Source: Acidobacteriota bacterium (GTDB lineage Bacteria > Acidobacteriota > Vicinamibacteria > Vicinamibacterales > UBA2999). From it: a stretch of DNA of 64,000 nt. Positions 39,649 through 45,243 of the stretch are shown piece by piece; the first letter of the stretch is position 1, and the number at the start of each line of letters is the position of its first letter. The DNA is taken from positions 62,001 to 126,000 of the forward strand of contig CANIBQ010000002.1 of the NCBI GenBank assembly GCA_947465645.1. Direction: 5' to 3'. Made by a program: the position numbers and the translations under genes. Under the pieces are notes generated by a model. That model was not told the DNA's origin. It did not search any database and was given only the letters and a program-made list of their open reading frames with translations.

Positions 39649-40527
39649 TTACGCCGATCCAGGCCGAGCCGCGGACAGCGGGCCGGGCTCCTCCGGAGAG
39701 TGGGCCGAAAAAAAGCGGTACAGCAGCCAGAGGTCGATCAATCCCACGGTCACCAGCACCAGGTACGCGGCGGGGCCTTCGACCAGCCCCAGCTCGTTCA
39801 GCAGACGCGACAACCCGAACCCCACCACCCAGGCGTCGAAGCTCATGCAGATCCGGCGGAACGTTTCCGCCTGCACGCGCCGGATGATGAACGCGCCAAT
39901 CGGCACGCCGATCAGGATGCTCGGCACAATCCACGGAACCAGCGCGATGCTGGTGACGGTGAAGAGCCCCGCATACGTGTAGGCCACGGCGGTCATCGAC
40001 GATTCCGCCAGGCGCACAAGCGCGAGGGCGGCGCGGAACTCGACCTTCGCGAGCCCCTGGTTGTTCAGCATGATCACCAGCGGTGGGCCGGAAATCGTCG
40101 TCACGGAGTAGAGCACGCCGAGGGCGCCGCCGAACACGAACGTCGCGGATCGTTCCGACCGGATCGGCCGGCGGTAACCCGCCGCCTGCAGCAGGATCAG
40201 CGGCAGCAGCACGATAAACGTGAAGAACCGCACCCATCCGGGGCTCACCTGCGCGACGATCGCCGTACCGACGGCGATACCAGGCGTCAGGCCGATGATC
40301 ATCGGCATCATCCGCCGCCAGACGCCGCCAATCGCCTCGCGGTTCACCCACAGCACGTAGGCGTTGAGCACCACCTCGATCAGCACCAGCGCCGGGTTCA
40401 GGACCCGGTTCGAGAGAAACAGCAGCGCCAGGGGAACGGTGATCGAAGAGAAGCCGTAGCCCAGCGCGCCATTGACGATGGCCGCGAGAAGCGTGATGCC
40501 GGCGAGGGCGAGCGTGTATTCGCTCAT
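39649..40527 (-). CDS. TauE/SafE family sulfite/organosulfur exporter
   Basis: 292 aa with about eight hydrophobic helices. The opening LAGITLLAAIVNGALGYGFSSITVPLALLF is the TauE/SafE signature, repeated in inverted form near residue 130 (FVFGGALGVLYSVTTISGPPLVIMLNNQG). Family members move sulfite, sulfoacetate or related sulfur anions across the inner membrane. No Shine-Dalgarno precedes the ATG; instead the ATG overlaps the stop of a 19-codon frame (ATGA). Upstream lies a Cys-rich leader frame and its promoter, so control by cysteine supply is likely. It is divergent from the rhodanese and next to cysDNH. Confidence 0.9.
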   Translation of the reverse strand: MSEYTLALAGITLLAAIVNGALGYGFSSITVPLALLFLSNRVLNPALVLIEVVLNAYVLWVNREAIGGVWRRMMPMIIGLTPGIAVGTAIVAQVSPGWVRFFTFIVLLPLILLQAAGYRRPIRSERSATFVFGGALGVLYSVTTISGPPLVIMLNNQGLAKVEFRAALALVRLAESSMTAVAYTYAGLFTVTSIALVPWIVPSILIGVPIGAFIIRRVQAETFRRICMSFDAWVVGFGLSRLLNELGLVEGPAAYLVLVTVGLIDLWLLYRFFSAHSPEEPGPLSAARPGSA

Positions 40528-40917: not shown

Positions 40918-42159
40918 GTGACTCCATCTGAACTCCGGCGGCGCTGGCGCGACGGCGAGGAGGTGGCGCTCTTCGACGCGCGCGAAGAGGATCTGTTCGC
41001 CGGCGCGCACCCGTTCTTCGCCGTCTGCCTTCCGCTCTCCCAGGCCGAGGCGCGTATCGACGATCTTGTCCCCCGCAAGACCGCTCCGATCGTCGTCTAT
41101 GACGCTGGGGAGGGTCTGGCGGCCAGGCTCGCGCAACGCCTCGAACAACGTGGCTACACCACCGTCTCGCTGCTCGCCGGCGGCCTCGAGGCCTACGCGC
41201 TCGAAGGGCAACTGTTTCGAGACGTCAACGTCCCGAGCAAAGCGTTCGGCGAGCTGGTGGAATCCACCTGTCACACGCCTTCGCTCCCGGCGCGGGAGGT
41301 CAAGGCGCTGATCGATGCCGGGGCGGATCTTGCCGTGCTCGACGTGCGCCGCTTCGAGGAGTACCGCACGATGAGCATCCCGACCGGGATCAGCGTGCCC
41401 AACGCGGAGCTCACCCTGCGCGTCTTCGACCTCGTCCCGTCGCCGCAGACCCTGGTGGTCGTCAATTGCGCTGGCCGGACGCGCAGCATCATCGGCACGC
41501 AGACGCTCATCAACCTAGGCCTGCCACATCGCGTCGCCGCGCTGAGGAACGGCACGATCGGATGGACGCTCGAGGGCTACGGGCTCGAGTCGGGACAGAC
41601 CCGGACGTTCCCTCGCGAGGCGCCGGCCTCACAGGCGCGGGCGATGGAGGCGGCCAGCCGATGGGCTGCGCGGGTCGGCGTGCGCACCATCGACCGCCTG
41701 ACGTTTGACACATGGATGGCTGAACGCGACCGCCGCACCCTCTACCGGCTCGATGTCCGCACGCCCGCGGAGCATGCCGCCGGTCATCCGTCCGGATTTC
41801 TCCTGGCCCCCGGCGGCCAGCTGGTTCAGGCCACCGATGAATGGATCGCGGTCCGCGGCGGACGGATCGTGCTGTTCGACGACCGAGGCGTACGCGCACA
41901 GATGACCGCCTCCTGGCTCCTGCAGATGGGGTGGGAAGCGGTCGTGATCGACCCGGGCGCCCTGGCGGCGAACGAGACCGGCATCGCGGCCCAGAGCCGG
42001 CCGCCGTCCCCTGAACACCATCGGTACAAGCGGCCATACGAAGGGACCGACAGCACGCGCGAAGCGATGCAGGGCTACATCGACTGGGAGTTGCAGCTGG
42101 TGGCGCAGATGGCGGTCGACGGGATCTCGCGCTTCAGGGTCATCCAGCCCGCGGGCTGA
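40918..42159 (+). CDS. Triple rhodanese-domain sulfurtransferase
   Basis: 413 aa, GTG start with AGGAAGAG upstream. Three rhodanese-like domains: about 5-100 (ALFDAREEDLFAGAHPF; active-site loop VVYDAGEGLAAR, no Cys), about 125-230 (AVLDVRRFEEYRTMSIP; loop VVNCAGRTRS with catalytic Cys and the CxGRxRS shape), and about 275-370 (YRLDVRTPAEHAAGHPSG; loop VLFDDRGVRA, no Cys). Only the middle domain should carry persulfide sulfur. Such proteins transfer sulfane sulfur. Sits between the TauE/SafE gene (divergent) and cysDNH (same strand, separate promoter). Confidence 0.88.
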   Translation: MTPSELRRRWRDGEEVALFDAREEDLFAGAHPFFAVCLPLSQAEARIDDLVPRKTAPIVVYDAGEGLAARLAQRLEQRGYTTVSLLAGGLEAYALEGQLFRDVNVPSKAFGELVESTCHTPSLPAREVKALIDAGADLAVLDVRRFEEYRTMSIPTGISVPNAELTLRVFDLVPSPQTLVVVNCAGRTRSIIGTQTLINLGLPHRVAALRNGTIGWTLEGYGLESGQTRTFPREAPASQARAMEAASRWAARVGVRTIDRLTFDTWMAERDRRTLYRLDVRTPAEHAAGHPSGFLLAPGGQLVQATDEWIAVRGGRIVLFDDRGVRAQMTASWLLQMGWEAVVIDPGALAANETGIAAQSRPPSPEHHRYKRPYEGTDSTREAMQGYIDWELQLVAQMAVDGISRFRVIQPAG

Positions 42160-42160
42160 T

Positions 42161-42189
42161 TTGCGCCCGCCAGCCAGACCCGATACAAT
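42161..42189 (+). promoter_or_regulatory. Promoter of cys leader / cysDNH operon
   Basis: -35 TTGCGC (42161-42166), 17-bp spacer, -10 TACAAT (42184-42189). The -35 starts 2 nt after the rhodanese stop. Predicted start at about 42196-42199 coincides with the leader GTG (42199). Confidence 0.65.
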
Positions 42190-42198
42190 CCTGACACC

Positions 42199-42297
42199 GT
42201 GTTCGCCCCGAACTGCTGTCCCTGCGCGTGTTGTTGTACGAGGACCCGAAGGGTCTCCGCGCCAAGGTCCAGCTGTTGGGGTGATCTCTCGAAATAG
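42199..42297 (+). CDS. Cysteine-rich leader peptide of the cysDNH operon
   Basis: 32 codons from GTG 42199 to TAG 42297. After FAPN it reads CCPCACCC (six Cys within residues 6-13, codons 42214-42237), then [19 protein letters not shown]. No ribosome site is present; the GTG lies at the predicted transcription start, so translation is probably leaderless. The Cys block is followed by self-complementary segments and a terminator in front of cysD, the layout of a classical amino-acid attenuator. Cys-rich leaderless frames before sulfur-assimilation genes are known in mycobacteria; I know of none described for Acidobacteriota. Confidence 0.8.
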
Positions 42298-42358
42298 ATT
42301 CCCACTCAAACACGCAAACGATCGAAGGCCCGGGACCCCACTCCCGGGCCTTTTTTTT
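42242..42358 (+). terminator. Transcription attenuator before cysD
   Basis: Terminator: stem GGCCCGGGA (42327-42335)/TCCCGGGCC (42342-42350), 6-nt loop, then eight T (42351-42358), ending 4 nt before the cysD ATG. Segment 1 GGACCC (42242-42247), right after the Cys codons, pairs with segment 2 GGGTCT (42251-42256). Segment 2 GGGTCTC (42251-42257) can instead pair with segment 3 GGGACCC (42332-42338), which includes most of the terminator's 5' arm. Segments 1 and 3 share GGACCC. A ribosome stalled at the Cys codons would cover segment 1 and favour the 2-3 antiterminator. Confidence 0.8.
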
Positions 42359-42362
42359 ATTT

Positions 42363-43307
42363 ATGTCCATACTTGCCGAACACCCCTCGACGCCGGTCGC
42401 CGCATCACCACGGCTCGACCACCTGCGCGCGCTCGAAGCCGAGAGCATCCACATCCTCCGCGAGGTGGTCGCCGAGTTCGAGCGGCCGGTGATGCTCTAT
42501 TCGGTCGGCAAGGACTCGTCGGTGATGCTGCGCCTGGCGCAGAAGGCCTTCTATCCAGGCCCCATCCCCTTTCCGCTGCTCCACGTCGACACCACCTACA
42601 AGTTCCGCGAGATGATCACGTTCCGCGACGAGTTGGTGAGGTCCGTCGGCGCGCGGCTGATCGTCCACACCAACGACGAGGCGATTGGCGACGGCACGCA
42701 GCCGTTCAAGGTCGGCACCCAGCGCTGCTGCGGCCTGCTCAAGACGAAGGCGCTGCTCGACGCGCTCCAGGCGGGGAACTTCGACGCGGCCCTCGGCGGG
42801 GCGCGTCGCGACGAGGAGAGGTCCCGCGCCAAGGAGCGCATCTTCTCGGTCCGCGACGCCAACGGCCAGTGGGATCCCAAGCGGCAGCGCCCCGAGCTCT
42901 GGAACCTGCTGAATGGCAAGCTCCGGCTTGGCGAAAGCATCCGGATCTTCCCGCTCTCGAACTGGACCGAGATCGACGTCTGGCAGTACATCCACGTCGA
43001 GAACATCCCGATCGTGCCGCTGTATTTCGCCCGCGATCGCGAGGTGATCGTGCGCGGCAACTCGCTGATCGTCCAGGAACAGCCGTTCGTGGTGACCATG
43101 CCCGGCGAAAAACCGCAGGTCGTCAGGTCCCGGATGCGGTCGCTCGGCTGCTCGCCGTGCACCGGCGCGATCCGGTCGAACGCGGACACGGTCCCGAAGA
43201 TCATCGAAGAACTGATCTCGACGCGGCAGTCCGAGCGGCAGCTCCGCATCATCGACCACGACCAGGACGGCTCGATGGAGATGAAGAAGCGCGAAGGGTA
43301 CTTCTGA
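42363..43307 (+). CDS. cysD: Sulfate adenylyltransferase subunit 2 (ATP-PPi transferase)
   Basis: 314 aa. Forms adenosine 5'-phosphosulfate from ATP and sulfate together with the GTPase CysN. PP-loop motif [21 protein letters not shown] (about 40-60), then [16 protein letters not shown], the [21 protein letters not shown] block and the C-terminal [13 protein letters not shown], all typical of Cys[19 protein letters not shown] aligns with the usual start of CysD, with a short N-terminal extension. No Shine-Dalgarno: the ATG comes 4 nt after the attenuator T-run. Stop overlaps cysN start by 1 nt. Confidence 0.97.
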
Positions 43308-44614
43308 TGTCTGGACTGCTCCGCATCTGCACGGCCGGGAGCGTGGACGACGGGAAGAGCACGCTGATCGGGCGGCTGCTGCACGACTCGCAGTCGGTCT
43401 ACGAGGACCAGGTCCTTGCCGTCCAGGCCGCGTCCAAGAACCGCGGCGTCGGCCTGATCGACTTCTCGCTCTTCACCGACGGCCTGAAAGCCGAACGCGA
43501 GCAGGGGATCACCATCGACGTCGCCTACCGCTACTTCGCGACCGCCCGCCGCAAGTTCATCCTGGCCGACACCCCCGGGCACGAGCAGTACACGCGCAAC
43601 ATGGCGACCGGCGCGTCCACGGCGGATGTGGCGATCCTGCTGGTCGATGCGCAGCAGGGCGTGCGGGTCCAGTCGCGGCGGCACGCCCGCATCGCGCGCC
43701 TCCTGGGGATCAAGGATTACGTGCTCGCCGTCAACAAGATGGACCTCGTGGACTTCGACCGCGACGTCTTCGACGGCATCGCCGACGAGTTCGAGGAGAT
43801 CCTGGCGGGCGCCCGCTGCCACGCCATTCCCATGAGCGCGCTCCAGGGCGACAACGTGATCACCGCCAGCGATCGGACACCGTGGTTCAAGGGTCCGAGC
43901 CTGCTCGACTACCTGGAGGGAGTCGAGGTCACGCGGGACCTCACCGCGCTGCCGTTCCGCTTCCCGGTGCAACTGGTGCTGCGGCCGGATCGCGAGTTTC
44001 GCGGCTATGCCGGGCAGATCGCCTCCGGAAGCGTCCGGGTCGGCGATCGGATCACCGCCTGGCCCTCCGGCCGCACCGCCACCGTCAACCGGATCGTCAC
44101 CTACGACGGCGACCTGGACATGGCGTTCGCGCCGATGTCGGTGACGCTGACGCTGGACGACGAGATCGACATCAGCCGTGGCGACACGCTGACGACCGAG
44201 CCGCCGATCGTCGGGCAGCGGTTTGAAGCCGAGGTCGTGTGGATGGACGAACGGCCGCTCGATCCGGCCCGTGTCTACCTGTTGAAGCAGGGAACGCGCA
44301 CGGTCACCGCCGAGCTCAACCACGCGCTGCTGCTCAACCAGATCGGCACGGTGACGATCTCGACCGCCCGTCCGCTGGTGTTCGACCCGTACGAGGCCAA
44401 CCGCGGGACCGGCAGTTTCATCCTGATCGACCCGGCCACCCATTTCACTGCCGGCGCCGGCATGATCACGCACGCGGTGCGGGAGGGTACCGAGGCCGCC
44501 GCGGCGGCGCCGGTCAGCGCGGCCGAACGGCTGGCGCTGCTCGCCCGCCGCGCCGGCTCCGACCGCGAAGCGGTCGAAGCGGTCCGCCAGGCGCTCGAGG
44601 AGATGCTCACATGA
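43307..44614 (+). CDS. cysN: Sulfate adenylyltransferase subunit 1 (GTPase)
   Basis: 435 aa; energises APS formation by GTP hydrolysis with CysD. Elongation-factor-like GTPase: G1 GSVDDGKST, switch region EREQGITIDVAYRYF, G3 DTPGHEQYTRNM, G4 NKMD, then EF-Tu-like beta domains (LPFRFPVQLVLRPDREFRGYAGQIASG and so on). There is no APS-kinase (CysC) domain at the C-terminus, consistent with direct APS reduction by the next gene. Overlaps cysD by 1 nt and cysH by 4 nt (ATGA). Confidence 0.97.
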   Translation: MSGLLRICTAGSVDDGKSTLIGRLLHDSQSVYEDQVLAVQAASKNRGVGLIDFSLFTDGLKAEREQGITIDVAYRYFATARRKFILADTPGHEQYTRNMATGASTADVAILLVDAQQGVRVQSRRHARIARLLGIKDYVLAVNKMDLVDFDRDVFDGIADEFEEILAGARCHAIPMSALQGDNVITASDRTPWFKGPSLLDYLEGVEVTRDLTALPFRFPVQLVLRPDREFRGYAGQIASGSVRVGDRITAWPSGRTATVNRIVTYDGDLDMAFAPMSVTLTLDDEIDISRGDTLTTEPPIVGQRFEAEVVWMDERPLDPARVYLLKQGTRTVTAELNHALLLNQIGTVTISTARPLVFDPYEANRGTGSFILIDPATHFTAGAGMITHAVREGTEAAAAAPVSAAERLALLARRAGSDREAVEAVRQALEEMLT

Positions 44615-45243
44615 TCGATGCGCGCACGGTCATCGCCGATGCGCTCGTGGCGGCGCAGGCGCCCTGCATCACCTCGAGCTTCCAGGCCGAATGCGTCGTG
44701 CTCACGCACTTGCTGCGCGAGCGGCGGCCGGATCTGCCGGTACTGTTCCTCGACACCGCCCATCACTTCGCCCAGACGCTCGCCTACCGCGATGAGATGA
44801 CCGCCAGGTGGGGCCTCAATCTCGTGAACCTGCGCACGGCCGACTCGCAGGTTGGCCTGTGGCAGGCCGAGAGCACCAACGCCTGCTGCGCGCGGCACAA
44901 GGTGCAGCCGTTGTTCTCGGCGCTCGAGCAGTACGACGTCTGGTTCACGGCGCTGCGCCGGGACCAATCGCCGTCGCGCGCGAACCTGCAGGAGGCCGAG
45001 CCGTTCACGCTGCCGAGCGGCAAGGTGATTCAGCGCGTCAGCCCGCTCGCATCCTGGACCGCCAGGGACGTCTGGGCGTACGCGAAGGAACACGACATTC
45101 CGCTGCTCCCGCTCTACGAGCTGGGCTACACCAGCATCGGCTGCGAGCCCTGCACCTCGCTCCCGGACGACCCGTCCAACCCGCGCTCGGGCCGCTGGCA
45201 GGGGCAAAAACTGGAGTGCGGGATTCATATCCAAGCCAGGTGA
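44611..45243 (+). CDS. cysH: Adenylyl-sulfate (APS) reductase, iron-sulfur type
   Basis: 210 aa. Reduces activated sulfate to sulfite. PP-loop-like fold with SSFQAECVVLTHLL, and the [4Fe-4S]-ligating pairs CCARHKVQPL (about residue 89) and CEPC (about residue 170: GCEPCTSLP), plus the catalytic KLECGIH near the C-terminus. The four extra Cys mark the assimilatory APS-reductase branch rather than the PAPS-reducing E. coli type, matching the absence of cysC. ATG overlaps the cysN stop (ATGA). The sulfite reductase is not in the window. Confidence 0.93.
   Translation: MIDARTVIADALVAAQAPCITSSFQAECVVLTHLLRERRPDLPVLFLDTAHHFAQTLAYRDEMTARWGLNLVNLRTADSQVGLWQAESTNACCARHKVQPLFSALEQYDVWFTALRRDQSPSRANLQEAEPFTLPSGKVIQRVSPLASWTARDVWAYAKEHDIPLLPLYELGYTSIGCEPCTSLPDDPSNPRSGRWQGQKLECGIHIQAR

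Follow-up and report, generated by a model that had tools for sequence, protein, structure and literature searches.

The classical attenuators of amino-acid operons are the trp, his, thr, leu, phe and ilv leaders. The leader described here, which precedes a cysDNH operon of Acidobacteriota, shares with them a leader frame with runs of codons for the regulated amino acid, mutually exclusive helices and an intrinsic terminator before the pathway genes. It differs from them in its putative signal, cysteine, in its hosts (Acidobacteriota and a few loci of another phylum), in a start codon located mostly 9–10 nt after the −10 box, and in the presence of the same switch before many operons. The S-box (SAM) and T-box systems, too, attenuate the transcription of sulfur or amino-acid genes. 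The S-box senses SAM and the T-box uncharged tRNA, both via RNA structure and without a leader frame, whereas the leader of our locus has a Cys frame and no Rfam match.

Canestrari et al. are said to have described polycysteine leaderless short ORFs of mycobacteria, in Mol Microbiol in 2020. These frames are reported to act by freeing the ribosome-binding site of the next gene, without a terminator. Both mycobacteria and Acidobacteriota have short Cys-rich frames in front of several sulfur operons; the mycobacterial frames respond to cysteine and are leaderless, and those of Acidobacteriota are probably leaderless. Unlike the mycobacterial frames, which are described as translational, the Acidobacteriota leaders have a terminator and a covarying antiterminator, the two systems being likened by description only. 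An extract of PMC9031893 states that the polycysteine frames regulate translation of the next gene, and work on Cys-rich leaderless frames before mycobacterial sulfur operons is cited in extracts of PMC9031893, PMC9094748 and PMC13236596.

Acidobacteriota are abundant in soils according to an excerpt of PMC5900883. A passage of a 2010 survey reports that almost no predicted attenuator of Acidobacteriota has an associated function, and the reference list of the same paper includes the S-box as a known attenuator of sulfur genes (PMC2965389). A search of the openly licensed PMC literature for Cys attenuators of Acidobacteriota found none described (subscription journals were outside its scope). 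Judged by openly licensed papers, cysteine-reading attenuators in Acidobacteriota would be new; the mechanism itself is known from the classical attenuators.

In the window (the whole stretch of 64,000 nucleotides that was analysed), cysD, cysN and cysH form one operon with overlapping ends; the assignment of the window to Acidobacteriota is based on relatives of its cysD. Judging from its sequence and that of its relatives, we interpret the leader before cysDNH as a ribosome-mediated transcription attenuator reading cysteine supply, with a probability of about 85%. RNA polymerase would start at the GTG or a few bases from it, and a ribosome would load at the 5' end and follow the polymerase, translating the Cys-rich leader frame. 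With charged Cys-tRNA scarce, the ribosome would stall in the Cys run and cover strand 1; strand 2, thus left free, would pair with strand 3, no terminator would form and cysDNH would be transcribed. With ample cysteine the ribosome would pass, either it or strand 1 would occupy strand 2, the terminator 3:4 would form and transcription would end before cysD. The leaderless start, translation, stalling and the direction and size of the response to cysteine are what we infer; our confidence in leaderless initiation is lower than that in the mechanism class.

Table 1. Features of the cysDNH leader and its surroundings in the window (R1 is the first covariance model of the leader).
Feature	Position	Strand	Evidence
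Promoter-like TTGCGC (42161-42166), 17 nt, TACAAT (42184-42189)	42161..42189	+	sequence; weak -35
Leader frame, GTG start, 32 codons, stop TAG (at 42295)	42199..42297	+	sequence
Control codons TGC TGT CCC TGC GCG TGT TGT TGT (six Cys)	42214..42237	+	sequence
Hairpin 1:2, CGAGGACCC / GGGTCTCCG	42239..42259	+	fold, site comparison, covariation
Strand 2, partner strand 1 or strand 3 (antiterminator)	42251..42283, limits approximate	+	pairing tests, covariation
Strand 3, bases 5' of terminator and its 5' arm	42312..42337, limits approximate	+	pairing tests, covariation
Intrinsic terminator 3:4, 12-bp stem (42324-42353), loop 6, T-run (to 42358, 4 nt 5' of the cysD ATG)	42324..42358	+	independent scan, covariation
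cysD (sulfate adenylyltransferase subunit 2)	42363..43307	+	PF01507; <=92% identity to MAG homologues
cysN-like GTPase	43307..44614	+	PF00009
cysH-like (P)APS reductase	44611..45243	+	PF01507
TauE family permease, sulfur-related	39652-40527	-	Pfam (PF01925); no R1 match of its own
Rhodanese-domain protein, sulfur-related	40918-42159	+	Pfam; no R1 match of its own

The preliminary description, made from the sequence of the window, had proposed a promoter TTGCGC-17-TACAAT. The sequence and the spacing hold; the −35 element is poor, a consensus promoter scan of the leader region reported no promoter, and many relatives have TTGAC(x) at −35 as against TTGCGC in the window. The GTG of the leader frame lies 9 nt downstream of the −10 box. 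The proposed frame of 32 codons with six Cys among residues 6–13 was borne out base by base: the Cys residues are 6, 7, 9, 11, 12 and 13, plus 26. In a six-frame translation of the whole window, CCPCACCC is the only stretch of eight residues with at least six Cys, and such a stretch did not occur in any of 40 Markov resamples of the window. The hairpin starts 1 nt 3' of the last Cys codon, and GGACCC (42242-42247) does pair with GGGTCT (42251-42256), as had been predicted, including one G-U pair. For the terminator, the T-run ending 4 nt before the ATG was confirmed, and the stem has 12 bp, not the 9 bp given originally. The suggested folding check came out positive, the region folding better than 200 shuffles (z = −3.59). 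An Rfam search of the window gave no family at threshold, with near-misses up to E 10 far below it, and the SAM riboswitch and T-box models had no match there. Just 5' of the cysD start (42342-42365) no Shine-Dalgarno-like purine run is seen.

Strand 2 of the window is one base shorter than in close cysD leaders (column 46 of alignment A4, see below). Because of this missing base, the leader stop lies 12 nt past its usual place in close cysD leaders; the 32-codon length of the frame is local to the window. The one-base gap may be either a real variant or an assembly error.

Conservation of the Cys run and of the pairing in relatives, by which the preliminary description was to be judged, was first of all found at cysD loci by a comparison that is free of any model. 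With the cysD of the window as query, 80 loci were fetched and 26, mainly the closest, were read by eye. A Cys leader stands at the head of the cysD operon at 19 of the 26: at 13 a Cys-rich frame and a terminator lie within 320 bases upstream of cysD, and at six (L006, L011, L015, L016, L022 and L074) the leader precedes an extra TauE-like or cysK-JAB gene which itself precedes cysD. The leader is therefore tied to the operon head, not to cysD itself. No Cys leader was seen at the other seven of these 26 loci (L018-L021, L023 and L024, with cysD 77–78% identical, and L044, 86%). A looser criterion, four Cys in eight codons, was applied to all 80 loci and yielded many unrelated frames and one further Cys-rich frame directly before cysD (L062). 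Cys density alone was thus not taken as proof.

The covariance model R1, which contains the Cys codons and the terminator, has a match in the genomes of 12 of the 13 relatives, and second copies precede siroheme genes. Within the class to which G001 belongs, R1 matches 90 of 193 genomes (E<=1e-3; best 1e-23), and 13 of these 90 have two or three matches. The PF01507 domain is found in 121 of the 193 genomes, among them 74 of those matching R1 (Fisher p = 1e-7); the other 47 genomes with PF01507 gave no match to R1. We compiled a set of 100 sites (99 fetched and the window), which are related by descent. Five weak class matches (22–25.5 bits) were dropped, a truncated hit (L140) was left out, and so were one hit each in G121, G099, G117 and G086 and the second one in G052. 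All 100 sites have a Cys-bearing frame with 2–9 Cys codons (median 5, counted from up to 60 nt upstream of the run's final Cys), and all have a terminator-like hairpin with a T-rich tail. This is partly by construction, since the models contain both elements; moreover, the terminator finder always returns the best hairpin (scores 20.6–41.8).

In 92 of the 100 sites the first gene matches a sulfur reference: cysD in 26, cysH in 22, a cysG-like gene in 20, cobA in 11, TauE in eight and cysK in five. As first gene we took, from the three longest frames that start no more than 350 nt away, the one with the best BLAST hit; a few may therefore be the second gene. The eight sites without such a match are L159, L091, L092, L096, L156, L180, L153 and L177. 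The first genes of L159, L091 and L092 resemble the window's own TauE protein (PF01925), L096 ends with its contig inside a cobA-like start, and the first gene of L180 is a PF03601 member. The scale thus exceeds that of the preliminary description: the same leader also stands before cysH, siroheme, TauE, cysK and other genes.

The terminators bear on whether the switch could act on translation, the 3:4 hairpin hiding the cysD start codon until a stalled ribosome frees it. In the window the hairpin and T-run adjoin the cysD ATG, so that in read-through RNA helix 3:4 could additionally prevent the translation of cysD, and the mycobacterial polycysteine frames are described in an extract of PMC9031893 as regulating downstream translation. 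A start-codon block needs no T-rich tail, however, and such a tail lies behind the best hairpin at 100 of 100 sites (four of eight T were required). At L104, L108 and L115, the first possible gene start is more than 100 nt past the hairpin. We thus consider translational attenuation in place of termination unlikely; transcriptional and translational control may act together at sites like that of the window.

Under transcription attenuation by a translating ribosome, the leader frame would be read as protein-coding sequence. In the Cys run, TGT or TGC stands at codon −2 in 95, at codon −1 in 91 and at codon 0 in 100 of the 100 sites, and TGA or TGG in none, counts on which the selection of the frame as Cys-rich and of position 0 as Cys has a bearing. 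A TAnnnT box was found 4–13 bases before an in-frame start at 47 of the 100 sites. Among these 47, the spacing between the −10 box and the start is most commonly 9–10 nt (29 sites), and the start is GTG or ATG in 43. Such a spacing leaves no room for a Shine-Dalgarno site, and the leader frames are probably leaderless. The stop codon lies at a median of 11 bases after strand 2. The N-terminal parts and the Cys spacing of the frames vary across sites.

An RNA-only switch, riboswitch-like or a protein-bound attenuator, would make the Cys-like codons mere conserved RNA. It would agree with a leader RNA that is conserved and structured and with a frame that, after the Cys run, partly tracks strand 2 and not a conserved peptide. 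Yet the Cys codons alternate between TGT and TGC without TGA or TGG, their number varies from two to nine per frame, leaders outside the class have 6–8 Cys amid different RNA, and the window gave no Rfam family at threshold. This explanation appears very improbable to us.

The three helices that a ribosome-mediated attenuator would use were analysed on alignment A4, which comprises 61 sites (L113, L156, L175, L092 and L100, present among the 66 non-redundant sites, were left out). Each helix was compared with 500 shuffles and with slid versions; the shuffles do not remove relatedness. Observed and shuffled covariation scores are 0.261 versus 0.187 for 1:2, 0.201 versus 0.155 for 2:3 and 0.281 versus 0.175 for 3:4. 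None of the 500 shuffles reached the observed score for any of the helices, and every slide scored lower. Likewise, the number of paired cells and of cells changed on both sides exceeded all 500 shuffles for all three helices. Of the five measures, two did not stand out for helix 1:2, double-change pairs and further pair types being equalled or exceeded by 219 and 145 of 500 shuffles, respectively. For 2:3 the same two were reached by 116 and 15 of 500, and only the former does not stand out. Columns 43, 143 and 175 of A4 change jointly, with C-G-C in 22 of 61 rows and U-A-U in 18, so that pairing with both alternative partners is preserved at one position. In a longer chain (22-34-151-167) all three pairs are kept in only 25 of 61 rows.

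Strand-swap tests were made on the 66 non-redundant sites. Own strands paired better than foreign ones for 2:3 (p = 1.2e-9) and 3:4 (p = 8e-13), and no such preference was seen for the control pairs 1:3 (p = 0.47), 2:4 (p = 0.81) and Cys:3 (p = 0.83) or, in the plain swap, for 1:2 (p = 0.12). Shuffled regions treated in the same way nevertheless give a weaker hairpin 1:2 than the native ones (p = 4e-4), and at 91 of the 100 sites a gap of 0–4 nt separates native arm 1 from the last Cys codon. Because the folding energy of 1:2 was significant against shuffles at only four of 100 sites, this hairpin was judged by the comparative tests; in these sequence data it appears as the weakest supported of the three helices. 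Strand 2, directly 3' of hairpin arm 1, resembles the 3' arm of the terminator. The duplex 2:3 has a mean z of −2.47 against dinucleotide shuffles, with p<=0.05 at 68 of 100 sites; the window's own duplex taken alone did not exceed shuffles (p = 0.228). The 1-2 / 2-3 / 3-4 logic put forward in the preliminary description is thus supported by covariation of all three helices on 61 sites. The alternative pairing with the 5' arm of the terminator was also proposed there, the antiterminator being longer than the 6–7 nt segments named.

A Cys-rich small protein with a function of its own (thiol, metal or iron–sulfur binding) behind which stands an ordinary constitutive terminator would fit a frame that comes first in a sulfur operon, and Cys-dense peptides can bind metals, but it is scarcely credible given N-terminal parts and Cys spacing that vary across sites and a strand 2 that covaries with terminator strand 3, which a plain terminator leaves unexplained.

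A pairing of the ACACGC motif, located 5' of strand 3, with the Cys codons or the start region is visible in the window as inverted repeats I2 and I4. This candidate was rejected, as the strand-swap test was null (p = 0.14 and 0.44).

The effect of a ribosome was modelled for all 100 sites. Before strand 4 is included, the mean probability of 2:3 was 0.76 with a stalled ribosome, 0.44 with none and 0.37 with a ribosome at the stop codon, and it rose with the stalled-ribosome mask at 95 of 100 sites. As masking alone could raise this value, the 5' part was shuffled as a further control. With the native 5' sequence, 2:3 is suppressed more strongly than with a shuffled one (0.42 versus 0.59; 66 sites, p = 1.8e-4); for the window the values are 0.036 and 0.58, with 20 of 20 shuffles higher. 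Once the RNA is full length, the equilibrium on average favours the terminator in every ribosome state, with a mean P(3:4) of 0.84 under stalling; exceptions are L087, which switches fully, and L081, which switches about half. At most sites, the switch must therefore act during RNA synthesis. In the model of the window, strand 2 stays accessible when the ribosome sits at the shifted stop (P(2:3) 0.51), so that shut-off there would rest on hairpin 1:2.

To follow the leader across the phylum, a second model, R2, was run over 396 genomes and matched 60 (best in the class 3.9e-20). All R2 matches with E below 1.5e-7 sit in genomes of the class set. From outside the class, 14 weaker matches were fetched and 12 weaker still were left aside. 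Convincing leaders are L188, L189 and L190, with 3–5 Cys before cysH or a cysH-like gene, and L191, L195, L196 and L197, with 6–8 Cys before cysH-like genes; Pfam was run for L188 and L195. L198 is of the same leader type as the latter four, is cut by the contig end and is likely a true leader. In L191 and L195-L198, the frames share an RPTRPTGGSG-like stretch after the 6–8 Cys; their terminator is built around CCCACTGCC/GGCAGTGGG, and GGCAGCGGG upstream is a possible strand 2. The remaining six (L192, L193, L194, L199, L200 and L201) were rejected as probable chance terminators: their best frame has only 0–3 Cys codons, which are scattered, and none of the frames examined is a sulfur gene.

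When R2 was applied to 20 genomes, namely 19 with PF01507 and without an R1 match plus G169, 14 had a match (E<=0.01), several of which are clear leaders and some chance. At L216 (G187:C1:2596500-2603800), the leader stands before genes for a substrate-binding protein, an ATPase and a permease and cysH-cysD genes.

As an intended negative set we used 200 genomes from the phylum that includes G544, a genome titled Gemmatimonadetes in which L022 lies. R2 matched seven of them (best 1.7e-5). Four (L208, L210, L211 and L212) have frames with 3–5 Cys and a terminator, followed, as read by eye, by TauE(-cysD), sulfite-reductase-like, TauE and sulfhydrylase-like genes, respectively. The set is therefore not a clean negative, as four of seven matches are Cys frames with terminators before sulfur genes. 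The other three (L213, L214 and L215) look like chance matches, as does L209 from the L064 genome. In the same phylum, a Cys frame and a terminator are also seen at L022:1918-2044.

Cys frames, three covarying exclusive helices, terminators, sulfur-gene contexts and breadth are directly supported by these data. The best reading of the sequences as a whole would be a multi-operon regulon of cysteine attenuators. We regard it as somewhat favoured that ribosomes govern cysteine homeostasis in much of Acidobacteriota and in a part of at least one further phylum, through a regulon of independent leaderless Cys-codon terminator attenuators before genes for sulfate activation, APS/PAPS reduction, siroheme and sulfite reduction, sulfite/sulfonate transport, cysteine synthase and peroxiredoxin, and that this regulon arose independently of the mycobacterial translational version. 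With the same switch before the other sulfur operons, Cys-tRNA charging alone would set the whole assimilation pathway, and the cell could sense its sulfur supply without a dedicated transcription factor. The logic of the classical attenuators would here be applied to cysteine, apparently on leaderless frames, and repeated over a regulon. An attenuator of Acidobacteriota now has an anatomy, a likely signal, a list of sulfur-gene targets and about 100 natural variants. The leader is a marker for locating sulfur operons, and terminated versus read-through leader RNA could report cysteine limitation in metatranscriptomes.

The frame before cysD in L062 (2738-2823; MKPVLNQMCIFCCCRACPAGCGHRFACC) is Cys-rich and of a different kind. 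It is perhaps another type of cysteine attenuator; the L062 genome gave no R2 match.

Some leaders stand before genes of other functions. Pfam assigns the gene behind L156 to a 1-Cys peroxiredoxin and that behind L206 to a redoxin-domain protein; L233, L204, L205 and L237 have a similar thiol-redox context by resemblance, read by eye. Cys leaders before peroxiredoxin or redoxin genes would place thiol-redox genes under the same switch. In L153, L177 and L219, Cys leaders precede the gene for a protein of about 320–350 residues (IGIYHEHQDWFRPLFAELDRRG in L153). The L153 protein had no Pfam match at E<=1e-5; by eye the three are possibly ATP-grasp-like, and they represent a candidate new sulfur or thiol enzyme.
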